Made by a program: the position numbers and the translations under genes. From the NCBI RefSeq assembly GCF_000001735.4, contig NC_003070.9:6696001-6760000 (forward strand): a DNA stretch of 64,000 nt. Direction: 5' to 3'. The stretch comes from Arabidopsis thaliana (Eukaryota; Streptophyta; Magnoliopsida; Brassicales; Brassicaceae). Under the pieces are notes generated by a model. It searched no databases. It saw only the letters and a list, made by a program, of their open reading frames with translations, and was not told where the DNA came from. Below, piece after piece: positions 13,953 through 50,144 of the stretch; the stretch's first letter is position 1; every line of letters begins with the position of its first letter.

Positions 13953-15336
13953 ATGGAGGTACGTTCTTATATAGGGATAGGGTTTCTAGATTTCGTTATT
14001 ACAGTTTATGAACCTGTTGGGTCTTTTCCATATATGTCTTGTAGAATTGGATTACTTGATTGTGTTTGGTTCGTATAAACTCTGCTAACTCAATCTCTGT
14101 TCGTACTCTCGTAGGGATTTATACGGACAAAACAACATCTCGTTGATCTTAACTAATCAACATCTCGTTGATCTCTATCTTATCAACTCCTCGTTGATCT
14201 CTATCTTATCAACTCCTCGTTGATCTAACTGATCAATTCTCGTTGATCTCTCGAATCAACATCTCGTTGATCTAACTGATCAATTCTCGTTGATCTCTCG
14301 AATCAATCCCTCGTTGATCTTGTTAAATCAATTCGTTGCTCAGTAATTAGAATTCTGTGTACGCATGAGAAAAGAAAGGATTTTGGTCCGGTTATTTTCA
14401 TGTTTCTAATTGCGATTAATTTATGGCTGTTGCTCTCTTTTATTAACCTTTGAATCTCCTTATCTAGGGGAAAAAAACAACATCTGATCAACTCTCATTG
14501 ATCCAATCATCAACTCTCGTTGATCATAGCCACTTATCATCAACTCTCGTTGATCATAACCACTTATCATCAACGCTTGTTGATCCAACCATCAACGCTC
14601 GTTGATCCAACCATCAACGCTCGTTGATCCAACCATCAACGCTCGTTGATCCAACCATCAACGCTCGTTGATCCAACCATCAACGCTCGTTGATCCAACC
14701 ATCAACGCTCGTTGATCCAACCATCAACGCTCGTTGATCCAACCATCAACGCTCGTTGATCCAACCATCAACGCTCGTTGATCCAACCATCAACGCTCGT
14801 TGATCCAACCATCAACGCTCGTTGATCCAATCAACTCTCGTTGATCCAATCAACTCTCGTTGATCCAATCAACCCCTCGTTGATCATAACCTCTAATCAT
14901 CAACGCTCGTTGATCCAGTTATCAACTCTCGTTGATTTAAAAGAGAAGGAACCTTGATTTTAGTTAGTGTTATCTATCTCCATAGATTTTAACACTTGTA
15001 CAGGTTTTTTGTTTGAGCTTTCAAACTGAAAAGAAACAGATGTACCAAAAACACAGAGAGGGGATTTTGTACATGACTTTTGCCATGACAGGTGCGCTTG
15101 CTTGGCAGGTCACAAACCCTTTAATAAAAAGATACAGTTTTTGGTTTCGTGGAGGGATGAGGGAAGGTACGGGGTTGGTTAATAAACTTTCTTTGCCCGG
15201 CTCTCTCTCCCTCCTGAATGTGTGTCTACTGTCTTGTTTCATATGCTTCTTGCATACTACACAGACCACAATTATTGAGGCATCACTTGTGCTCTTTAAT
15301 ATGCTTCTTGCATGTGCTATGATCGAAGAACATTGA
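13953..15336 (+). CDS. candidate two-exon gene, unknown small protein
   Basis: Exon 1 would contribute only ATGGAG (13953-13958) before GTACGT. Exon 2 begins after CAG at 15003 and stays open from 15004 to the TGA at 15334-15336, in the same frame, giving 112 aa. The intron of 1,045 bp holds the palindromic minisatellite. The protein begins MEVFCLSFQTEKKQ and has a hydrophobic stretch in its second half (SLLNVCLLSCFICFL), a possible membrane segment. I recognise no domain. A promoter with G-box and TATA lies upstream, and a diverged copy of the start of exon 2 sits near 3457-3530 in the paralogous block. The splice reading is inferred; the transcript could instead be non-coding. Confidence 0.4.
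14118..14945 (+). repeat. palindromic minisatellite, 22-bp core unit
   Basis: The core (about 14588-14830) has roughly eleven nearly identical 22-bp units, CCATCAACGCTCGTTGATCCAA. It is flanked on both sides (14118-14340, 14480-14585, 14830-14945) by looser units of 17-30 bp sharing the same centre. Each unit contains the inverted repeat ATCAAC-GCTC-GTTGAT, able to form a 6-bp hairpin in DNA or RNA. The centre varies (GCTC, TCTC, CCTC) while the arms are kept. The array lies in the inferred intron of the candidate gene. Confidence 0.95.
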
Positions 15337-21725: not shown

Positions 21726-22637
21726 TTTGTATTGTACTGAGTAAAAGCAAATATGTGCAACCAAGAGTTGTTTCTTTTCTGAATATGTATTATAAAGCAA
21801 TGTATTGTAACCAAACAAAAAGATATATGTATTGTTTTACAAAATTTTAGTTTTTTCTTAGAGAACCCCATTAGTGGTTTTAAATTTTTAATCATTGGAG
21901 GACACAAAACTTAAGAGCTTCTATGCAAGTTTTTAAGTTTGAAAAAGCTAAATTTATACTTATAAAATGCAAAAAACTCATCATGGGCTTGTAACCATTG
22001 AAGATGCTTTTAGAACTTTTTTTCAAAAATAAAATAAGAAAATTGGCTTTGTAGAAGACAAGGCACTCAATTAATGGCGGCCCATATTTTTTAAATAGCC
22101 CAAGAGCACACTATGCCGTTTTCGTTTTAGGTTCCGTCCAAAAATTAACAATATTTTCGTCGAAGTTTTTCATTTTGATTTTACTCCCTTTTTATGTCAT
22201 TTGGAGTTTTTGTTACATTTCTTTTTCTTATATCTCTTGTTTTTTAACGCAATTTATTTTGATTCTAGTAGTTAAATCTTGTATTCATTTTTTTAATAAT
22301 CCTTTTGGTAACTCAAAAATAAAAATTGAATTGAAAAAAATAAATAGAAAAAATTGACCTAATTTAACATGTTTATCGTGTATGCCAAACCTATTTTGAA
22401 ATTGGGATGTCGTCCTCTTAGTTACACAAAGATTAACCTACTTCGTTAAGTCTTATATTATCCTTAATATTAAGACAAGAATAATTCTTTGAGTGTCCTT
22501 TTCAAGTAAACAAAGAATATAACTTGATATAGATTATTTGATGGAGTATAAAAGAATATCTATCATCGTTACCTGAAACCAAAACATAAGAAAACCATAC
22601 ACAAAACTAAAAGTAAAAGCATAGATTTATTTCATCT
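21726..22637. other. spacer; upstream flank of DC1 copy 1
   Basis: From about 21930 the sequence is a close duplicate of 24760-25455, the upstream flank of DC1 copy 2 (shared GGCGGCCCATATTTTTTAAA and other stretches). No gene was seen. Confidence 0.7.
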
Positions 22638-23091
22638 ATGGAAATACTAATGAAAATTTACTCACTATCACTAATGTGACGGCTGCAATCAAGGCGAAGA
22701 TTCTTATAGCGATGGGTATCGTTGTTTCCGTTCTGGACTCTTCTTTCATAAGCAATGCTCCAACTCCGATATAGAGATCCATAATCTCTATCATCCACAA
22801 CATTCTTTGCATATCAAAGTAGTTGCTGAAAATGAAGATGTACATGAAAAATGCAAGCTTTGTAGAGGTAACTTGCCAAAGATGTATTACTATTGTTCTA
22901 CATGTGACTTTGCTATCGATTTGGTATGCGCAAGAAAAGAAGTCATTCTTACAATTGAAAGTCTAGAGACCCACGGGCATCGTTTATCACTTATTCCAAA
23001 GATGGTTATGTTTACTTGTTCTCTATGTGGACTGCTTGATGATCGGTTTCCTTATGCATGTATTAAATGTATTAAATGTTTGGTTTCATAA
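22638..23091 (+). pseudogene. DC1 zinc-finger gene copy 1, truncated
   Basis: The start (22638) and the following sequence are nearly identical to the DC1 gene at 25459. A small deletion near codon 12 brings an early stop. After the codons for LLDDRFPYAC the sequence jumps directly into the 3' flank that copy 2 has at about 28055. Roughly 2.1 kb present in copy 2 is therefore missing here, with TGTATTAAATG-type short homology at the junction. Residual codons keep C-H-rich DC1 modules (CKLCRGNLPKMYYYCSTCDF). Non-functional. Confidence 0.88.
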
Positions 23092-23318
23092 TATTTAACT
23101 TATAAATTTGTATACCTGCTATCTCCTCTTTCGTTTAAATTTAAACTTTCTTCGTTATTAAATATTTTATTTTTATAGTATATTTTAGAATGTTGAGTAC
23201 CCCATTTCTCAAAATATATTATGGGTATTTCTACTGCAATGTATAGAAATTTTCATCATTTAAATTTATTGAAAAGGTTTCTTTGAAAGGAAGGAAAATC
23301 GAATTTATAATTTTTAAA
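23092..23318. other. 3' flank of DC1 copy 1
   Basis: AT-rich; matches 28075-28314 downstream of copy 2. Similarity stops at 23318, where the Copia fragment starts. Confidence 0.75.
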
Positions 23319-24759
23319 AACCTTGTGCTGGCCGTAACTCAAACACTGTCTCTGCGGGTCCATCATCAAGCAAGGGATCTAATTCGGTTCAGGCAAATCA
23401 CATGTTCACACCAAACAGCGTTACATCTCCCGGTTTTTGTTTTCAACATGACAACTCAAGCTCCCCTCGCACCTGCAGATCTCGTTGGGATTAGTGGTCT
23501 AAACGATGATGATTGGAAATTGTTACAACACATGCTTGCAGAGCGCAAGAACAAGTCAACAGAACGTCTCTCCGGTAAGTTTTTCTTTGAATCATGGATC
23601 ATTGATACAAGCGCGTCGAATCATATGACGGGTACACTTGAGTTTTTGCTTGATATACATGGCATGGCACCTGTTTTGATAAAACTTCCGGATGGACGGT
23701 TCACAACCTCCACAAAACATGGTCGTGTTTTGATGGGTTCTTCATTAAGTCTCCAAGATGTGTTCTTTGTTGATGGGCTTCATTGTCATCTCATTTCAGT
23801 ATCACAATTGACTAGAGACAGTGGATATATGTTTCAGATAACTGACAAGGTTTGTGTTATTCAAGACCGCATCACGAAGACGCTGATTGGCGCAGGTGAA
23901 CAGCTTAATGGTCTTTATTTCTTTAGAGGATTGGGAGTTGCAGCGCCTGTTCAACACAAAGATTCTACACCCATCGATGTGTGGCATAGACGTCTCGGGC
24001 ATCCATCTTCTAAAGCTATGGAGATGTTGAAATTCTCAGATTTTAGTAGTAGTGGTTTTGATTCAAAAGATTGTGAGATTTGTATTAGTGCCAAGCAGAC
24101 AAGAGATTCGTTTCCTTTGAGTTCAAATAAAACAAGTTTTGCTTTTGAATTGATTCATTGCGATCTATGGGGTCCTTATCGATCATTCTGCTTGTGAATT
24201 CTCGCGACGATCTCTCACGGGCTGGTTTATACAACTAGGTGGTTCTCCTATTTCGTGGAAGACAAATAAACATGATGTGGTCTCACGTTCTTCCGCTGAG
24301 GCTGAATACAGGGCCATGGCTGACACCTTCAGTGAGTTATTATGGATCCGTCAGTTACTAAATGTTTTAGGAATTGATTGTTCACAGCCTATCACACTAC
24401 ACTACGATAGCTTGTCTGCAATTTAATTGGCTGCCAATCCGGTTTATCATGCAAGGACAAAACACGTTGGCCGTGATGTTCATTTCGTCCGTGACGAGAT
24501 AATTCGTGGAGTAGTAAAGACAACGCATGTCAATACAAAGTCTCAGCTCGCCGATATCATGACTAAAGCTCTTGGTCGAAAGGAGTTTGAAGAGTTCCTT
24601 TGCAAGCTAGGTATTGGGCTATATGGGCCTCGTTTAACTTAGTCCATATCTTGTAATTAGGTTAAGTCATAAGACTAATGTCTTCTCTTGTATATAAGGC
24701 AACGATCATGTATCGTAGCAAAATAAAAAAATCTTTTACATCTTCTGGGTTTCTTGACA
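23319..24759 (+). mobile_element. Copia (Ty1) retrotransposon fragment, broken
   Basis: Recognisable parts, in Copia order, are: a linker after gag; an aspartic-protease motif WIIDTSASNHMTG; the GAG-pre-integrase region (WHRRLGHPSSKAMEML, CEICISAKQ); and the RNase H C-terminal part (SRSSAEAEYRAMADTF, NTKSQLADIMTKALG). The element is much shorter than a full Copia and is broken, with a few breaks. A possible 3' LTR remnant covers about 24650-24759, ending in CA with TATATAAGG inside; no matching 5' LTR was found. It separates the two copies of the DC1 locus and belongs to a different family from the element at 8.2 kb. Age cannot be read without paired LTRs. Confidence 0.85.
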
Positions 24760-25458
24760 GTTTTTAAATTTGAAAGAGCTAAATTTATACTTATAAAATG
24801 GAAAAAACTCATGGGCTTGTAACCATTGGAAATACTTTTAGAACTTTTTTTCAAAAATAAAATAAGAAAATTGGCTTTGTAGAAGACAAGGCACTCAATT
24901 AATGGCGGCCCATATTTTTTAAATAGCCCAAGAGCACACTATGCCATTTTCGTTTTAGGTTCCGTCCAAAAACTAACAATATTTTTGTCGAAGTTTTTCA
25001 TTTTGATCTTATACTCTTTTTTTGTCATTTGGAGTTTTTGTTACATTTCTTTTTCTTATATCTGTTGTTTTTTAACGCAATTTATTTTGATTCTAGTAGT
25101 TAAATCTTGTATTCATTTTTTAATAATCCTTTTGGTAACTCAAAAATAAAAATTAAATTGAAAAAAAAAAAAAATTAACCTAATTTAACATGTTTATCGT
25201 GTATGCCAAACTTATTTTGAAATTGGGATGTCATCCTCTTAGTTACACAAAGATTAACCTACTTCGTTAAGTCTTATATTATCCTTAATATTAAGACAAG
25301 AATAATTCTTTGAGTGTCCTTTTCAAGTAAACAAAGAATATAACTTGATATAGATTATTTGATGGAGTATAAAAGAATATCTATCATCGTTACCTGAAAC
25401 CAAAACATAAGAAAACCATATACAAAACTAAAAGTAAAAGCATAGATTTATTTCATCT
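24760..25458. promoter_or_regulatory. upstream region of DC1 copy 2
   Basis: Duplicate of 21930-22637, with only scattered differences. It presumably contains the promoter of the DC1 gene; no specific element is claimed. Confidence 0.55.
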
Positions 25459-26883
25459 ATGGAAATATTAATGACAATTTACTCACTAGAACTAACCCGT
25501 GGGCTAAAATGTGATGGCTGCAATCTAGGCGAAGATTCTTATAGCGAAGGGTATCGTTGTTTCCGTTCTGGACTCTTCTTTCATAAGCAATGCTCCCGCT
25601 CCGACATAGAGATCCATAATCTCTATCATCCACAACATTCTTTGCATATCAAAGTAGTTGCTGCAAATGCAGATGTGCATGAAAAATGCAAGCTTTGTAG
25701 AGGTAACTTGCCAAAGATGTATTACTATTGTTCTACATGTGACTTTGCTATCGATTTGGTATGCGCAAGAAAAGAAGTCATTCTTACAATTGAAAGTCTA
25801 GAGACCCACGAGCATCGTTTATCACTTATTCCAAAGATGGTTATGTTTACTTGTTCTCTATGTGGACTGCTTGATGATCGGTTTCCTTATGCATGTACCT
25901 TATGCAATATGAGTTTTCACAAAGATTGCGCTGAATCCACACCAGAGATCAACTACTCTTGTCATCCTTGTCACATTCTCAAGCGTTTCACTCGTGTTCC
26001 AAGTTACACAGATGGAAAATGTTGTTTGTGTGGAAACACACCTTATAATGTATTTTATCATTGTTCTATTTGCGATTTCAGCGTGGATGTTAATTGTGCA
26101 AAGAATCCACCCCCTTTCACTCTTGTTCAATCTAAGGCCCATAAGCATGCACTCACTTTTATGCCGCAACGATATTTTGTTTGTAATGCTTGTGGACTGG
26201 ATGACGACCCTAATCCTTATATATGTATTCCATGCAATTTCATGATCCATCGAAATTGTATTGATATACCACGCGTCATAAAGATCAGTCGTCATGATCA
26301 CCGTATTTATTACAATCATTATCTTGAAGCCGGAGACTGGAATTGTGTGATGTGTCATAAAGAGATAAAGTGGACATGTGGAGCTTATTTTTGTTCGCAA
26401 TGTCCTAGTTTTGCCATTCATGTCAGATGTGCCACAAGGTACGGGGTTTGGGATAGGATTGAACTGGAAGGCATACCAGAAAATACTTTAGAGGTTAGAT
26501 CATATAAAGTGATCAAAGAAGGAGTAATAGAGCATTTCACTCACAAGGATCATACTTTAAAGCTTAGAGAAAAAAGTGATAATGATGAATGCATCTCCTG
26601 TAAAGCATGCACCTATCCCATATTTTCTAGCCCATTCTATAGTTGCATGGAATGTGAAAATTTTATCCTTCATCAAAAATGTGCTTATCTCCCAAAACAA
26701 AAAGTAGATTCCCTTTACAAGATGTCGACTACTTTATCTACGAGAGGTGTGGGAAGCAACTCCTTTGAAATTTGCAGTGCTTGTCACAAAATTTATAATG
26801 GTTATACATACGAAAGTGATGATAAGTGTGTAGGCCTAGATGTGCGATGTGGTTCTATTTCTGAGCCTTTTGTCCATTGTTGA
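25459..26883 (+). pseudogene. DC1-domain Cys/His-rich protein gene, first part (copy 2)
   Basis: A single open frame of 474 aa rich in DC1 (C1-like) modules with Cys-X2-Cys...His-X2-Cys patterns: CDGCNLG, CKLCRGNLPKMYYYCSTCDF, CSLCGLLDD...CTLCNMSFHKDC, CCLCGNTPYNVFYHCSICDF, CNACGLDDD, CVMCHKEIKWTC, and CSACHKIYNGYTYE. Plant DC1 proteins form large tandem families; several members take part in defence or cell-death signalling, but most have no known partner. The frame ends where a solo LTR begins (26878), so the 474-aa product lacks the last modules, encoded further on. Most exon content is continuous, as is usual for this mostly intronless family. It may be transcribed, but the intact protein is not made from this arrangement. 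Confidence 0.85.
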
Positions 26884-41364: not shown

Positions 41365-42483
41365 TTATGTTTTAAAACATAAGTTTAGATGACATTTTCA
41401 ATGTTTACCAATAACATTATGTTTTAAAACATAAATTTAGATGACATTTGATGTTGTATTGGTGAATAAAATATATGTATTGGAAAAAAAAAAAAAAATC
41501 TCCACAAAAGTCATTCTCTCTTTTTTCTAAAATTCATTGAAGATATATTTTTAAAAAAAAAGAAAAACAGAGTGTTATTTACAGATGAATGAATTGGGAA
41601 ACATTTAAGTAATTTTTTAAATATGATACGTATGTAACCTGTTAGTTGTTAATCTTCTTAGTTGTTAATAACGTCGGCATAATTGAGATCCCAAAATCAC
41701 ACAAGTTACATACACGAGGTTTTATTTTTTTAAAGAACTTCTAAATCGAGATAAATCTATGGTCGATAGAGGCAACGACAAGAAAGGCCAGTAGATATCA
41801 CACCAAACACGTCTTATTGGGGTTATGATTCATAGGCTCTGATTCATCGTTCAACATATAATAATATTCTGTTGACCCAACAATGCAGATTCGTATATTT
41901 TCACTGTTCTGGGTCTTTTGTCTCTTTCTCATCTCTCACGTGTTAGTGCTTACATCTCTGTGTAGCCGTTTCCGGATCCCGACACAAGCATTCTCTTCCA
42001 TTGTCCCCACTTTGCTTAGTTGGTCTGATACTTTTATCGGTTTTAATATCAATAAGTAACACGATTTTCACCATTTAACGAGTACATGCAACACGATTGT
42101 ACATGTCACATTTATCTTGGCATAAATCTATCTATGATCGTTAACACGATTATACATTAAAAACTTTGGATCAATTATTTTTTATTTTCTCTTTTATTGT
42201 TGGGAGTAGTGTTCTAATTGATTTAATAATTTTTATTGAGAATAATAATCGAATTTAAAATGCAGTGTGTATTAGACAATTAGTGGACTTATAGAGGCTA
42301 ATTTAAGTAACCAAATTTGGGCTTTAATAAGGATCCATACTCTTCGGCTTGAAAGCCCACATTGTAAAGTTAAAACACTATATCAGGCTCTGTTTTCATT
42401 ATGGCTATAAATACACGAGTTTTTCCAGAAACCAAATCAGGCTCTGTTTTCATTATTTCTCGCTGCTGACTTCACAGACGACG
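41365..42483. other. AT-rich spacer and leader of kelch F-box gene 1
   Basis: Contains a tandem duplication of about 52 bp (ATGTTTTAAAACATAA(G/A)TTTAG repeated, 41367-41440). From about 42420 the sequence is a near copy of 45230-45295. No other gene was seen. Confidence 0.5.
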
Positions 42484-43734
42484 ATGGCTAATATCTCTGA
42501 AATTTCCGGCGACTCTAATGACGGCGGAGATCCAAACAAGAAACCAGAAGAACAAGTTTTGAGAAGAAGTAGAAGAATCGCGACAAGAAACGAGAATCAA
42601 AACAAGAAGCCCAAGGAGGAAGAAGAAAAAGATAATCGCTCGGTATCTTTTCCAATTCCAAACGAGCTCACGGAAGCTTGCGTCGCACTCATCCGGAAAT
42701 GTGATTACCCTAGTCTATCTTCCGTCTCAAGTTACTTTTTCAATCTCATCGCTTCGTCAGAACTCTACGAAACGCGTTCGCGCCTCGGTCTTTCCGAAAC
42801 CTTTCTTTACGCCGCCATCCGATTCCCTGACACAAATCCCCCAAACTGGTACATTCTCCATCGAAACAAGGTTTCTTCTTTACGTTTGAGCAAACTCGAA
42901 TCACTTCCACCTGTGCCTTATGGATGTTCTGTCGTCACAATCGGTCAAGAGATGTATGTAATCGGTGGACTCCTCGATGTAAGACGTTTACAGTTGATGA
43001 CTCTCATCGACTGCAGAACTCACAAATGTCGCTCGCTTCCGAAAATGAAAAGGGGTCGTTACCATGCAGCCGCCGGAGTATTCGACGGAAAGATTTACGT
43101 AATCGGAGGTTTCAGGATGAGAAAACCGGATGCTGAATGGATTGAAGTGTTTGATCTAAAGAAACAGATTTGGGAATCTTTGCCTGGTCCGTACCCTAAA
43201 ACTAGTATGGATTCCCAGTTTTTTGCACATGCGGTGATGGAAGACAAGTTATACATTTTGGGCTCACGTTGCTTGATTTACGAACCAAAAAGAAACGGTG
43301 AATGGGACGCAACCGTCAATGCAAATCCAATATGGAATCTGTGGAAAGTGCCATGTACTATGCAATGTGTGATAGATGATATGTTGTATACGATTGATCC
43401 TCAGTGTACTCTTGGACATCCAATAGTCGTTTATAATCCAAAGGACAAAACGTGGAGACCTGTGAAAGGTGAATCTTTGAGGACATTGCCTAGTTATTTT
43501 GTTTCTGATGGGTCTGAAATGGCGAATTTTGGTGGAAAGTTGGTGATTTTGGGCAGTAATGGGAGCTGCTATGATACTGGTGATTGCATTGGAGAAAAAG
43601 GTATTTGGTGCGTAATGATCGAGTTGGAAAAACGTGAAGGAGGTGAGATTTGGGGGAAGGTTGAATCACTCGACTGTGTGCTTGGAGACATAAACTTTCT
43701 GTCGGTTTGGCTTTGTCAAACTCTGACCCTTTGA
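42484..43734 (+). CDS. kelch-repeat F-box protein, copy 1 (At1g19460-like)
   Basis: A single coding exon, 416 aa. The N-terminus is low-complexity and charged (KKPEEQVLRRSRRIATRN). The F-box covers about 56-105 (PNELTEACVALIRKCDYPSL). Kelch repeats follow with YVIGG, IYVIGGFRMRK and LYILGS motifs to the C-terminus. These proteins act as substrate receptors of SCF E3 ubiquitin ligases; plant kelch F-box genes are numerous and fast-evolving, and substrates are mostly unknown. An in-frame upstream extension exists to 42349, but the copy at 45296 aligns from the MANISEI/MVNISEI start, which is chosen. It is part of a duplicated block with the second copy. Confidence 0.92.
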   Translation: MANISEISGDSNDGGDPNKKPEEQVLRRSRRIATRNENQNKKPKEEEEKDNRSVSFPIPNELTEACVALIRKCDYPSLSSVSSYFFNLIASSELYETRSRLGLSETFLYAAIRFPDTNPPNWYILHRNKVSSLRLSKLESLPPVPYGCSVVTIGQEMYVIGGLLDVRRLQLMTLIDCRTHKCRSLPKMKRGRYHAAAGVFDGKIYVIGGFRMRKPDAEWIEVFDLKKQIWESLPGPYPKTSMDSQFFAHAVMEDKLYILGSRCLIYEPKRNGEWDATVNANPIWNLWKVPCTMQCVIDDMLYTIDPQCTLGHPIVVYNPKDKTWRPVKGESLRTLPSYFVSDGSEMANFGGKLVILGSNGSCYDTGDCIGEKGIWCVMIELEKREGGEIWGKVESLDCVLGDINFLSVWLCQTLTL

Positions 43735-44261
43735 TGATACAAGGGATGGTTTCTTGCAGGTACGTTTATGTGAATGAGTATGAACCTTTTTTGATATTCA
43801 GGCCTCTTCTTTAGCCTCAAGGCTTACATACTTGTCCTTTTTCATGATCTTGTTGCAGATGAAGGATCTTTATTACTCAAGAGTCAAGAGTAACTCGGTC
43901 CTTGTTAACCTTTGTGTACAATAATAATACTCTTACATAATTATCATAGCCTTGAGTAGATTTATTAAGCTGTAACAAGAGTGGGGCTATCTGCAGTTAT
44001 ACAATACATTCCTTACCAAAACTTGTTGAAATGCATCTTTAGTTACAGCTATGTTTTGGATATTTTGTGCAGTTTCACACTTTCACTAATATGCTATGTG
44101 CTCTCTATTTGTTCTTTTCTGTAAGTAATAATCACACACAATCAGGTAGTAACAAAAACTCATTCTGTTTCTACTATATGTGCAAATATGAAATCATTTA
44201 GAATTCAGATGAAGCAAAACTAACCGAGTTTAGTTAACTTGAAGATTCAAAGAGAACAGGG
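43735..44261. other. 3' region of kelch F-box gene 1
   Basis: Aligns well with the region after 46535 in the second block. A CTTGCAG/GTACG site just after the stop suggests a 3' UTR splice site. No other gene was seen. Confidence 0.6.
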
Positions 44262-44445
44262 TAAGAAATACCAAGTAGCCGAATGTGGGCTTTAAAAAGC
44301 CCATATAATGGTCATCGCGTAAAAGACGTGTTAGAGAAGATATAAAGCCTAGTTAGGGCAGACTAAATCCCAAAGTCCACCACAATCACCCAAACCTAAA
44401 ACCCGTAACCTAATTCCGCCGCAATCCACCGATGCATGTCATGGG
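44262..44445 (+). pseudogene. relic of DNA glycosylase promoter and first codons
   Basis: The sequence matches 48250-48610, the leader and first codons of the HhH-GPD glycosylase gene (AAGTAGCCGA, TTAGAGAAGATATAAAGC, CACAATCACCCAAACC, AATCCACCGATG). Parts of the leader are missing. The match breaks near 44445. It is the far end of the first duplicated block, non-functional as a gene. Confidence 0.8.
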
Positions 44446-44675: not shown

Positions 44676-45295
44676 TAAAGGAATCCAACCCTAATTTGAG
44701 CTCTTGTATATTGAAGTCAGCAGCGAGCATTAGGCTCACGATTTATTCTTTAGGAGATGGTAATGGTACATTCTCCATCGAAATCCCTACTCTTACTTAA
44801 CCTTTGTGCAGAATGTGAATATAAACCCTTATGTAGCTTCTTTTAGCTGCCTTTTTATACGATATTCTAATCAAACCCTTGTTGAGATCCATATCTAGTC
44901 ATAGCTATGTTTTGGATTGTTGTGCAGTTTCACTAACGTAGTCTCAAGTTCAGTTGGTAAGTAATCACAATCAGATTTAACAAAAACAAATTTGCTTCTA
45001 CTGAGAGGCAGTTTCACTTAGGAGAATAAGTGGAGTAACAAATGTTAAAAATAAAAATGATAGAAAAAATCATATGAAAATTTGAAAGTGAATTTCTGTT
45101 TTGATTTTTCTGGTTCAATGTGAAAATACAGTTTAGTGAGGAAAAAAACAGCTAAATTGTAGTATTGTATTAAAACGAGTTTTAAGGAAGAAAATACAAA
45201 TGAAATTATGGGTATATAAATACCCAAATACCTTTCTCAAAAACCAAATCAGGCTCTGTTTCCATTATTTCTCGCTGCTGACTTTACACACGACG

Positions 45296-46534
45296 ATGGT
45301 CAATATCTCTGAAATTCCCGACGACTCTAATGACGGCTGCGATCCAAACAAGAAACCAGAAGAACAAGTTTTGAGAAGAAGTAGAAGAATCGCGACAAGA
45401 AACGAGAATCAAAACAAGAAGCCCAAGGAGGAAGAAGAAGAAGATAATCGCTCGGTATCTTTTCCAATTCCAAACGAGCTCACCGAAGCTTGCGTCGCAC
45501 TCATCCGGAAATGTGATTACCCTAGTCTATCTTCCGTCTCAAGTTACTTTTTCAATCTCATCGCTTCGTCAGGACTCTACGAAACGCGTTCGCGCCTCGG
45601 TCTTTCCGAAACCTTTCTTTACGCCGCCATCAAATTCCCTGACACAAATCCCGCAAACTGGTACATTCTCCATCGAAACAAGGTTTCTTCTTTACGTCTG
45701 ACGGAAGTCGGTTCACTTCCACCTGTGCCGTGGGGATGTTCTGTCGTCACAGTCGGTCAAGAGATGTATGTAATTGGTGGACTCCTAGACATAAGACGTT
45801 TACAGTTGATGACTCTCATCGATTGCAGAACTCACAAATGTCGCTCGCTTCCGAGTATGAAAAGAGGTCGTTACAAAGCAGCCGCCGGAGTTGTCGACGG
45901 AAAGATTTACGTAATCGGAGGTTTCAGGATGAGAAAACCGGATGCTGAATGGATTGAAGTGTTTGATCTAAAGACACAGATTTGGGAATCTTTGCCTGGT
46001 CCGTACCCTAGAACTAGTGCGGGTTCCCAGTTTTCTGCACATGCGGTGATGGAAGACAAGTTATACATGTTGGGTTCTAAATTTTGTTTGGTTTACGAAC
46101 CAAAAAGAAACGGTGAATGGGACGCATCCGTCGGAGCAACCCCATTAAAAGATTTGTGGGACAAGACTTGTTGTGTGGTAGATGATATGTTGTATACGAC
46201 TGATCCTCGGCGTACTCTTGGACATCCAATAGTCGTGTATCATCCAAAGGACAAGACTTGGAGACCTGTGAAAGGTGAATCCTTGTGGAGTTTGCCTAGT
46301 TATTTCTTTTCTAAGTCTGAAATGGCGAATTTTGGTGGAAAGTTGGTGATTTTGGGCAGTAACAAGAGCTATGTTACTGGTGATTGCATTGGAGAAAAAG
46401 GTATTTGGTGCGTAATGATCGAGTTGGAAAAACGTGAAGGAGGTGAGATTTGGGGGAAGGTTGAATCACTCGACTGTGTGCTTGGAGACATAAACTTTCT
46501 GTCGGTTCGGCTTTGTCAAACTCTGACCATTTGA
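45296..46534 (+). CDS. kelch-repeat F-box protein, copy 2 (At1g19470-like)
   Basis: A single coding exon, 412 aa, closely similar to copy 1 across the whole length. F-box at about 56-105, then kelch repeats (YVIGGLLDIRRLQLM, IYVIGGFRMRK, LYMLGSKF). The most different part is around residues 280-310 (GATPLKDLWDKTCC versus NANPIWNLWKVPC), in the substrate-binding kelch side. This suggests divergence in target choice, which is an inference. Predicted SCF ubiquitin-ligase adaptor. A 3' UTR splice acceptor (TTCTTGCAG) follows the stop, as in copy 1. Confidence 0.92.
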   Translation: MVNISEIPDDSNDGCDPNKKPEEQVLRRSRRIATRNENQNKKPKEEEEEDNRSVSFPIPNELTEACVALIRKCDYPSLSSVSSYFFNLIASSGLYETRSRLGLSETFLYAAIKFPDTNPANWYILHRNKVSSLRLTEVGSLPPVPWGCSVVTVGQEMYVIGGLLDIRRLQLMTLIDCRTHKCRSLPSMKRGRYKAAAGVVDGKIYVIGGFRMRKPDAEWIEVFDLKTQIWESLPGPYPRTSAGSQFSAHAVMEDKLYMLGSKFCLVYEPKRNGEWDASVGATPLKDLWDKTCCVVDDMLYTTDPRRTLGHPIVVYHPKDKTWRPVKGESLWSLPSYFFSKSEMANFGGKLVILGSNKSYVTGDCIGEKGIWCVMIELEKREGGEIWGKVESLDCVLGDINFLSVRLCQTLTI

Positions 46535-46978
46535 TGATACATGAGATGGTTTCTTGCAGGTATGTTTATGTGATTGAGTATGACCTTTTTGCTGTTCATG
46601 CCTTTTCTTTAGCATCAAGGCTTACTTGTCTTTTTCATGATCTTGTTGCAGGTGAAGGATCTTTATTACTCACCTTAACCTTTGTGCACAATAATAATAG
46701 TCTTTTACATAAGCCTTGAGTAGATTTCTTAAGAAAGTGGGCTAGATGCATTTCTACAATATTCTCACCAAAACTTGTTGAAATGCCTCTTTAGTTACAG
46801 CTATACTTATACAATTTCACTAACATGCTCTCAAGTCTTTTTCTGTAAGCAATAATCACACAATCAGATTATAACAAAACCTAATCTGCTTCTACTATAT
46901 GAGCAAATATGAAATCTTTTAGAATTTAGTTGAAAGCAAAACAAACCGAGTTTTAAAACTTTTAAGTTAACCTGAAGC

Positions 46979-48230
46979 TAGAGATGTTAACGATGGGTTA
47001 AAACCCACTGGGTACCCAAAACCCACATAAAATTTTAAGCCCATAAATCTACTTTTTTAAGAAAAAAAATACATGTTTAAAATGGGCTAAGTACCCAAAT
47101 AAATAAAACCCATATGGGTTTACCTCATTGGGTTATGGGTACCCACGGGTTTTTTTAAAGTCATTTTTCAAGTGAATCAACATTTTCTTGTCAAAAAAGA
47201 TTTCACATTTTTCCGCCAAAAAAGACATTCAACATTTTCCCGCCAAAAACGACAATCAACATTTTCCCGCCAAAACGCAATTTAACATTTTCCCGCCAAA
47301 ACGCAATTTAACATTTTTCCGCCAAAAAAGACATTCAACATTTTCCCGCCAAAAACGACAATCAACATTTTCCCGCCAAAAAGCAATTTAACATTTTCCT
47401 GCCAAAAACGACATTCAGCATTTTTCCGTCAAAACGACATTCAACATTTTCCCGCCAAAACGACATTCAACATTTTTCCGCCAAAACGCAATTCAACATT
47501 TTCCGCCAAAACGCAATTCAACATTTTTCCACCAAAACGCAATTCAACATTTTCCCGTCAAAAACGCAATTCAACATTTTCCCGCCAAAAACGAAATCAA
47601 CATTTTCCTGCCAAAAATGATTTCACATTTTCCGGTCAAAAACCCAATTTAACATTTTCCCACCAAAAATGATATTCAACAACATTTTTCCGCCAAAACC
47701 GCGATTTAACATTTTCCCGCCAAAAACGACATTCAACATTTTCCCGCCAAAAAAGACATTCAACATTTTCCCGCCAAAAACGACAATCAACATTTTTCCG
47801 CCAAAACGCAATTTAACATTTTCCCGCCAAAAACGACATTCAGCATTTCCGGCCAAGAAAAGGATTTGACATTTTTCCTGCCAAAAACGCAATTTAACAT
47901 TTTTCCGCCAAAAAACGCAATTTAACATTTTCCCATCAAAAACGAATTCAACTTTTTTCCCATCAAATATATATGTAATTCAGAAAATAAATACAATTTA
48001 AAATATATTTATAAGCAAAATATAGATACAATATACATATAATAGTATATTAGCAGTTAAACATAAACTCTAAGAAAATGACAGAAACCAAGTTGGATAC
48101 CCACAAGTAGTCTCGGAACAATCAGGTTTTTTTGGGCTTTACCCACTAAATAAAAAACCCATAGGTTTTTGGTAGGGGTTTTTTTTGGGTTCAAGTCGGG
48201 CTGGGCTTTTTTACCCACCACAACTGCCTA
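46979..48230. mobile_element. transposon-like segment carrying the E2F-site array
   Basis: The left end TAGAGATGTTAACGATGGG resembles plant hAT ends. The right end, read inverted, is TAGGCAGTTGTGGTGGGTAA, partly matching it. It is bracketed by TAACCTGAAGC (46968-46978) and TAACCTATAAGC (48231-48242). The paralogous block has this sequence only once (TAACTTGAAGA near 44234) with no insert, which supports an insertion. Flanks hold repeated GGGTACCCA/AACCCA words. There is no transposase, so it is non-autonomous. A target duplication of about 11 bp would favour a Mutator-like class and the ends a hAT class, so the class is left open. Confidence 0.6.
47185..47965 (+). repeat. minisatellite of about 29 E2F-site-like units
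   Basis: Units of about 25-28 bp read CAACATTTTCCCGCCAAAACG with variants. I count about 29 units, of which about eleven carry exactly TTTTCCCGCCAAAA, and six carry TTTTTCCGCCAAAA. TTTCCCGCC is the E2F-DP consensus (WTTSSCSS). The centre is better kept than the spacer, which varies (CGACAAT, CGCAATT, AGACATT). It lies inside the transposon-like segment between a kelch F-box gene and the glycosylase gene. Confidence 0.9.
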
Positions 48231-48519
48231 TAACCTATAAGCTATCACTTTTAAGAAATACTAAGTAGCCGAGTTTGGGCTTTAAAAAGGAAGTAAAAGC
48301 CCATATAAAGGTCATCGGAGCGTGAGAGCCACTCTCGTACAGAGCGCGTTAGAGAAGATATAAAGCGACGGAGCAGATTCTTTTTCTTCCCTCTCTCCTG
48401 AGAAGAAGAAGTAAAGAAGTAAGATCAATTCTCGGCCGTAGTTAGTTATCCTCCGAATAGATTTCCGATTCTCTGTTTCTTCTAGATTGAATTTAAAAAC
48501 CCTACTTTTGAATTTTCAC
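48231..48519 (+). promoter_or_regulatory. DNA glycosylase promoter and leader
   Basis: Contains a site II-like GGGCTTTAAAAAGG and AAGCCCATA near 48275-48305 and a long leader with pyrimidine-rich CTTTTTCTTCCCTCTCTCC. The same motifs are kept in the relic at 44262-44445. Confidence 0.55.
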
Positions 48520-50144
48520 ATGGGAGAACAATCACCTTCTCAACCATCGACTCAATGCCAAAGTCATCCACAATCACCCAAACCCGATACTCATAACCTA
48601 ATCCCACCGGAATCCACCGATGAATGTCTCGATTCAGCTGGAGTTTCAGGCTCAATCGTCTCATCTACCACAATCGACGCTCGACGGATCACTGAACTAG
48701 GCAATGTATCGTCTCCGCCGTCCAAAATCCCTCTCCGCCCTCGGAAAATCCGGAAACTCACACTCGACGGAGACGTCTCCGGTGAAGATTATAAGGCGGA
48801 GGATATCTCCTCATCTCAAGTAAACTCTCCGCTCGCGACGGATGGAAAATCTCCCGGTAAAGGTAAATTGTCGCACTTACGAGCTATAACTGTGCCGAGG
48901 ATCCAAGCTCGTCCTCTGACATGTGAAGGTGAGCTCGAAACAGCGATTCACTATCTCCGTAACGCGGATCCTTTGCTCGCGGCGTTAATCGACGTTCATC
49001 CACCGCCGACGTTTGAGTCTTTTAAGACTCCGTTCTTAGCTCTGATACGAAACATCCTCTACCAACAGCTTGCAATGAAAGCTGGGAATTCAATCTACAC
49101 ACGATTTGTTTCTCTCTGCGGCGGCGAAAATTTGGTTGTACCTGAGACGGTCTTATCATTAAATCCTCAGCAGCTTCGTCAAATTGGTGTCTCGGGACGT
49201 AAGGCGAGTTATCTTCATGATTTAGCTAGAAAGTATCAAAACGGAATCTTGTCGGATTCGGCGATTTTGAACATGGATGAGAAGTCTTTGTTCACGATGC
49301 TAACAATGGTTAATGGAATTGGGTCATGGTCTGTTCATATGTTCATGATAAATTCTCTTCATCGACCAGATGTTTTGCCGGTTAATGATCTCGGTGTTAG
49401 GAAAGGAGTGCAGTTGCTGTATGGCTTAGATGACCTGCCTCGGCCATCGCAGATGGAGCAGCATTGTGCTAAGTGGAGACCGTACAGATCAGTGGGTTCG
49501 TGGTACATGTGGCGGCTCATTGAAGCTAAGAGCACATCAACGAGTGCTGCTGTTGCAGCCGGAGTGTCATTACCTCCATTGGAAGATATTCAACAAGAAC
49601 ATCAGCAGCAACAGCTTATGGACCCTCTTAATGGTGTGTTCAGTATCGGGTAAGTAAAGTTTGTTTCTTTTGGAAACTTTTGAAAGTTTTTCTCTGTACT
49701 TGGAGTGTGCTTAGCTTAAGTAGATAGATTATTGAAAACTGTTACTTGCTGCAAATACAAACTAATATGTTTGGTTTGGATCACTAAGATTAAATATCTG
49801 AGCTTTGGCCAACTATTTGTGGAATGCGCTTATGGTTGATAAAGTATTTTAGGCCTCCAAGATTAGGTGTAATGTTTAGTTGGTGACATTCATGTATATA
49901 GGAGACTAATAATGAGCTTACATTTCATGTTTGACAAAAAGTAGTTGCTTGAAACCATCTAGTGAGTAGTGAGTGAGGCTATATTTTTCATCACCTCGAT
50001 TGACTGACACCTTCAGGGTGTCTACATAGTGTCGTAGGAGAGTTTTTCCAGCTATGGTCTTGATTTCTCTCCATGATTCTTTCTACGCTAATTCTTCTGA
50101 TTATCGATCTATGACTCTTTAACAGGGCTTGGGGACAATCGTAG
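48520..50144 (+). CDS. HhH-GPD DNA glycosylase (3-methyladenine glycosylase/AlkA-like)
   Basis: CDS is exon 1, 48520-49649, plus a tiny last exon, 50126-50144 (ATCGG/GGCTTGG), giving 382 aa. Without splicing the frame ends at 49653 (377 aa). The N-terminal 125 residues are low-complexity with Ser/Pro and basic runs. The catalytic domain follows: helix-hairpin-helix TMVNGIGSWSVHMF (about 264-277) and catalytic Asp290 in VLPVNDLGV, as in AlkA/MAG enzymes. These excise alkylated purines and start base-excision repair in the nucleus; the substrate here is inferred. The start is the first ATG in the CACATGGGAGAAC context; a longer reading from 48487 has no ATG. Its promoter and first codons are duplicated at 44.3 kb. 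Confidence 0.92.

Follow-up and report, generated by a model that had tools for sequence, protein, structure and literature searches.

We analysed a window of 64,000 nucleotides of Arabidopsis thaliana DNA in which an insertion that carries an array of short direct repeats lies ahead of a gene for a DNA glycosylase (Table 1). The ORF that opens this gene spans 48442-49650, with its ATG 290 bp past the insertion and 568 bp past the array. Its PF00730 domain places it among the HhH-GPD glycosylases of the AlkA type and its relatives in the PDB are 3-methyladenine glycosylases, so that the DNA-repair gene which the initial annotation of this locus had placed downstream of the array is indeed there. 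By its position in the gene order, we take it to be probably At1g19480, on Arabidopsis chromosome 1. Upstream of the insertion we found two Kelch ORFs and, farther off, KCS-type, methyltransferase, WAK-type and AT-hook ORFs.

Table 1. Coordinates, within the window, of the features at the insertion and around it.
Feature	Coordinates	Strand	Description
Block A	42331-44440	+	Paralogous Kelch ORF and fragment matching the 5' end of the glycosylase gene (to 44440); empty site at 44233-44244
Kelch-repeat ORF, block B	45140-46531	+	FKB95-type; upstream of the insertion
Left target-site-like duplication copy	46968-46978	+	TAACCTGAAGC
Transposon-like insertion	46979-48230	+	1252 bp; starts with TAGAGATG, ends with CTGCCTA; flanking duplication, empty site in block A
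Left subterminal region	46979-47165	+	13 RCCCA motifs (both orientations) within 187 nt
Direct-repeat array	47182-47952	+	29 units (cut by hand), core TTTTCCCGCCAAAA, steps of 25-30 bp, mean 26.6 bp
AT-rich interior	47958-48090	+	No RCCCA
Right subterminal region	48091-48230	+	7 RCCCA motifs (both orientations) within 140 nt
Right target-site-like duplication copy	48231-48242	+	TAACCTATAAGC
First ORF of the DNA glycosylase gene	48520-49650	+	HhH-GPD (AlkA/MAG-type); Pfam PF00730, E 5e-22

At1g19480 has been listed among the AlkA-type enzymes (PMC10573277). A KW test, but not the AMM analysis, was reported to link SNPs of AT1G19480, AT1G19485 and AT1G19490 to NO2 damage, and a T-DNA line of AT1G19480 was reported to be sensitive to ozone and NO2 (PMC9627343). 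In the titles and abstract openings of the papers found to name AT1G19480, E2F does not appear, nor did it turn up in one of them when its passages were searched for the term. Repeats of other kinds are found elsewhere in the window: the segments 21928-23062 and 24759-25897 are direct duplicates, 95% identical, near C1-domain ORFs, and a retroelement ORF of the gag-pre-integrase/Pol type (23247-24194) lies between them. Another minisatellite region is located at 14133-14936; its part at 14568-14868 consists of 14 copies of a 22-bp unit, CATCAACGCTCGTTGATCCAAC, with 97% matches, and each of these units holds the palindrome-like ATCAACG-CT-CGTTGAT.

The array was delimited in two ways. Tandem Repeats Finder reported it at 47177-47957 with a period of 27, 29.4 copies, 81% matches and a score of 850, and cutting it by hand gave 29 units, in agreement with the roughly 29 repeats initially proposed; the coordinates 46979-48230, which had been attached to the array, are correct for the insertion and too wide for the array proper. 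The E2F consensus sequences used for scoring are TTTSSCGS and WTTSSCSS. The exact 14-mer TTTTCCCGCCAAAA, which forms an E2F site on either strand, is present in 11 of the 29 units, as had also been stated (about eleven). With TTTSSCGS, we counted 11 matching units on the plus strand and 18 on the minus strand; 18 units match on either strand and 11 on neither. Seven units without a plus-strand match thus keep one on the minus strand, and the description of the inexact units as near misses was an understatement, since 7 of these 18 match the consensus on that strand. In the whole window we observed 12 occurrences of TTTSSCGC, 11 of them within the array, compared with a mean of 2.65 after shuffling; the maximum among shuffles was 9 and none of 100 reached 12. 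When the array is excluded, TTTSSCGS occurs in the rest of the window twice on the plus strand and four times on the minus strand. Sites of the LIN54/TCX (DREAM) type in the spacers were considered by eye and dropped.

The sequence TTAACCTGAAGC before 46979 and the sequence TAACCTATAAGC after 48230 are identical in 10 of 12 aligned columns, with one mismatch and one gap, and flanks this alike are found at 20 of 8955 sampled places with the same spacing. The near-identical flanks of the initial annotation are therefore present, as an imperfect duplication (11/12 bp) which starts exactly at both proposed ends of the element. Block A (42422-44231) and block B (45233-46953) share 87.7% identity. 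As previously noted, the flank is single and insert-free in the duplicated block: block A holds GTTAACTTGAAG once, at 44233, uninterrupted, and once the insert is taken out of the alignment, block A meets the right flank again at ...TAAGAAATAC.AAGTAGCCGA. Because this empty site is kept in block A, the insertion appears to be younger than the block duplication, and a duplication followed by an insertion is, on the sequence, the simplest order of events, as the initial annotation had proposed. The bases immediately to the right of the junction align poorly, so it is formally possible that block A lost an insert; an insertion after the duplication is nevertheless the simpler reading.

Both ends of the element are rich in RCCCA. 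Among windows equal in length to the left subterminal region, we found at most four occurrences elsewhere (0/6238 reach 13), and among those equal to the right one also at most four (0/6246 reach 7); within the element, a single RCCCA falls in the array. As the motif had been chosen by eye, the scoring was repeated with all 5-mers competing: ACCCA ranked first, and among 1205 control segments matched in length none was as extreme. The insertion has ORFs of at least 90 codons (stop-to-stop) of 102-128 codons only, all running through the repeats. To judge from the sequence, the segment is laid out like a DNA transposon that carries subterminal motifs. Within the 64-kb window there is no second copy of the element ends. 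No second copy of the left end was found in the plasmid collection either, where a single short match in Priestia (E 0.05) was rejected.

The ends had been called hAT-like. The hallmarks of hAT elements are a terminus YARNGNTG at both ends, an 8-bp target site duplication, short terminal inverted repeats, and subterminal motifs at both ends and in both orientations. The left end, TAGAGATG, fits YARNGNTG, and the RCCCA clusters are subterminal motifs of the expected kind, although these are not exclusive to hAT. On the other hand, the reverse complement of the right end reads TAGGCAGT and does not fit, the adjacent 8-mers CCTGAAGC and TAACCTAT differ and give no 8-bp duplication, and the score of the terminal inverted-repeat alignment is within chance (equalled by 160 of 2000 shuffles and by 241 of 2510 window pairs). 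Membership of the hAT superfamily is thus only partly supported by the sequence: that part of the initial description which concerned the left end stands, and the remainder does not. The target site duplication is 9-11 bp long in Mutator-like elements (MULEs) and 8 bp in hAT elements, and MULEs without terminal inverted repeats (non-TIR) occur in Arabidopsis. A duplication of 11-12 nt that begins exactly at both proposed ends would suit a MULE better, keeping in mind that the duplication observed here (11/12 nt) includes one mismatch and one gap and has its equal at 20 of 8955 control places. However, the fit of the left end to YARNGNTG, the ends reading TAG...CTA and the clusters of subterminal motifs in both orientations all speak against it, and we consider a MULE rather than a hAT element to be possible, though less likely than not.

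We also compared the units column by column, with the spacers right-anchored. Within the core, mean conservation was 0.99 in the A/T columns and 0.86 in the C/G columns; in the spacer columns it was 0.75. The centre had been described as better kept than the spacers; this holds for the 14-mer as a whole, but its C/G columns are the least-kept part of it, and the last seven spacer columns range from 0.62 to 1.0. Of 24 changes in the core C/G columns, 19 are C>T, three are G>A and two are C>G, so that 22/24 are C>T or G>A, compared with 16 of the 26 spacer changes from C or G. These core changes are not independent, since variants were copied during the growth of the array; in addition, 9 of the 19 C>T changes share one column beside the T run, where a change in the length of the run could mimic them. 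Between-unit similarity shows a weak peak at a lag of four units. Taken as it stands, this bias resembles what deamination would produce in a methylated, decaying transposon, and the pattern of core changes gives no sign of strong selection for keeping E2F binding. As most core C/G changes are of these two types, the element is probably silenced.

Of 72,556 plasmid records searched, a single one was hit, CP036489.1, which bears the label Rahnella aquatilis pMEM40-2. Its genes include sopA, repE and catA1, together with a ParB-type gene and a resolvase gene, a set which we take to be that of a BAC vector, and it also carries plant-type TIR, NB-ARC, LRR and PPR genes (TNL-type and PPR). The record (1-49310) looks like plant DNA cloned into a BAC, and its Rahnella plasmid label is probably wrong; the plant insert would presumably come from Brassica. 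The idea that its array is a bacterial iteron array was rejected, the BAC-vector genes adjoining plant-type genes. In the other prokaryote, viral and plasmid collections, whose zeros are uninformative on plant copy number, the array-unit patterns gave no match in viral contigs or in genome contigs. The core-only pattern gave none in genome contigs and one in viral contigs (IMG/VR; L003 12202-12251), which has 2.4 copies of a 21-bp unit with TTTTTGGCGGGAAAA and was judged too short and unrelated. Neither the window element nor the CP036489.1 array had a match in phages, the window array had none in E. coli genomes, and among plasmids the CP036489.1 array matches only its own record.

The array of CP036489.1 (3676-4496, period 27) resembles that of the window in its unit of about 27 bp with the core TTTCCCGCCAAAA, in the size of the element that contains it (1262 bp vs 1252 bp) and in the motif clusters at both ends. 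It differs in its spacer, in its ends, which are clearly inverted (GGTGCTGTTCGTTTG and, inverted, GGCCCTGTTCGTTTG, alike at 13/15 positions), and in its subterminal motif, CATCY instead of RCCCA. Indeed, the two consensus units have 13 of 14 core positions in common and only 5 of the remaining 13. A likeness of inverted ends as high as 13/15 occurs at one of 48,048 places at that spacing in CP036489.1, namely the element itself; CATCY is found 8 and 10 times at the ends and at most 7 times elsewhere. These ends and this motif were chosen by eye; in the scan with all 5-mers, one of 910 control segments was as extreme. No matching duplication flanks the ends of the CP036489.1 element. When its array was cut, 10 of 33 pieces matched TTTSSCGS and 23 did not, the cut being rough, as two of the pieces are parts of one unit; a direct count gave four TTTSSCGS on the plus strand and 11 on the minus strand. 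The exact TTTCCCGCC occurs four times there and 11 times in the window array. Since this array was found by its likeness to the query, the core common to both arrays gives no independent support for enrichment. As far as the sequences tell, the same plan, motif-rich ends around a central E2F-core minisatellite of about 27 bp, does occur with other ends and other spacers, an observation that is new here.

Altogether, the explanation we consider probable is that a MITE-like element was inserted after the duplication, that it contains an E2F-like minisatellite, and that it is now silenced and decaying, affecting the gene modestly at most and contributing little to titration. The Kelch gene and the 5' end of the glycosylase gene would first have been duplicated locally, and a non-autonomous, MITE-like DNA transposon would then have entered ahead of the glycosylase gene. 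In the interior of this transposon, a minisatellite built on a unit with a two-way E2F-like site would have expanded by tandem duplication, the repeat structure itself being observed. Each of the 18 matching units could bind E2F/DP, and the insertion would supply a dense candidate E2F platform to a gene whose own upstream stretch is without a consensus match. E2F or RBR complexes may touch the silenced, decaying element in dividing cells; its effect on the glycosylase gene would be at most modest, and it might take a small share, jointly with other such elements, in the titration of E2F. This explanation draws on the 18/29 matching units, on the empty site with the flanking duplication and the subterminal clusters, on a C>T/G>A bias that is stronger in the core (22/24) than in the spacer (16/26), and on the second plant element with the same plan. 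It is weakened by inverted repeats within chance, by a duplication that is imperfect and longer than 8 bp, by the 11/29 units without an E2F consensus, by the absence of any further copy of the ends from the window, and by the non-independence of the core changes, including the 9/19 C>T changes in one column adjacent to the T run.

The same observations could be read otherwise: the minisatellite grew by slippage or unequal exchange as a passive passenger of the element, and neither E2F nor the glycosylase gene is at present affected by the E2F match. The predominance of C>T and G>A among the core C/G changes agrees with this, as does the proportion of repeats devoid of a consensus match, 11/29 in the window and 23/33 pieces in CP036489.1. 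However, a match on one or both strands persists in 18 units, and E2F sites in such elements are reported to bind E2Fa in vivo (PMC12595863, PMC4110626). We hold a purely passive array to be a real possibility, a little short of an even chance.

A stronger effect on the gene was also considered, in which the array has turned it into an E2F and S-phase target. In favour of it, the array ends 568 bp and the insertion 290 bp ahead of the ATG, there is no match to TTTSSCGS or WTTSSCSS between 48231 and the ATG at 48520, and E2F and RB are said to act in plant DNA repair too (PMC7956360); yet the word glycosylase is absent from the main text of that review, and the element is probably silenced, judging by its core changes. 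Such a rewired promoter seems unlikely to us. Many arrays across the genome could instead act as a sink, soaking up E2F and lowering its effective amount, as proposed for E2F sites in transposons remote from genes (PMC12595863). The 29-unit array is a dense cluster of sites, but a single array contributes at most 18 matching units, and we rate such a role as unlikely too.

The locus lends itself to a compact natural test of whether cell-cycle control of a DNA-repair gene can be conferred by a transposon: 18 matching units, a stretch free of consensus matches from the insertion to the start codon and an adjacent paralogous empty site are found together. Two elements with unrelated ends and a common plan also raise the question of whether E2F arrays recur in such transposons because they are of use there or arise as a by-product. 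Speculatively, and with a quite low probability in our view, E2F-core minisatellites of about 26-27 bp might have arisen repeatedly, or been exchanged, in unrelated Brassicaceae transposons because binding of E2F/DP or RBR/DREAM helps the elements, for example by S-phase access or escape from silencing. If so, the array would be a working organ of the transposon, and its near-constant spacing, about two and a half helical turns, would be part of it.

Amplification of E2F sites by transposons in Brassicaceae was reportedly described by Hénaff et al. in 2014 (Plant J 77:852). The initial annotation had named this amplification as known in Brassica relatives, and it is indeed already published (PMC12595863, PMC4110626, PMC13317346, PMC8725346). 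E2F motifs are reported to have been amplified there in hAT, PIF/Harbinger and MULE MITEs as well as in Helitrons (PMC12595863, PMC4110626, PMC13317346), and some of the E2F-carrying elements of A. thaliana are described as near genes and as variable between ecotypes (PMC12595863). In the literature on E2F with MITEs or tandem repeats and on minisatellites in hAT elements, no title or abstract opening among the matches listed describes this array, and the string TTTCCCGCCAAA is absent among the matches listed in the E2F and transposable-element literature. The Short Interrupted Repeat Cassettes (SIRC) of A. thaliana resemble it in their short direct repeats, variable spacers and enrichment in MITEs, but they are described as 2-8 repeats interspaced with diverse DNA that escape standard repeat finders (PMC10342631), whereas the window array has 29 repeats with related spacers and is detected by a standard finder. 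With the E2F-site MITEs of Brassicaceae it has in common a feature described in these reports, namely E2F consensus sites within small DNA transposons of Arabidopsis and Brassica, some of them near genes: in the window, such sites are found in 18/29 units, inside the insertion. The array is therefore a vivid example of a known phenomenon, not a new phenomenon.
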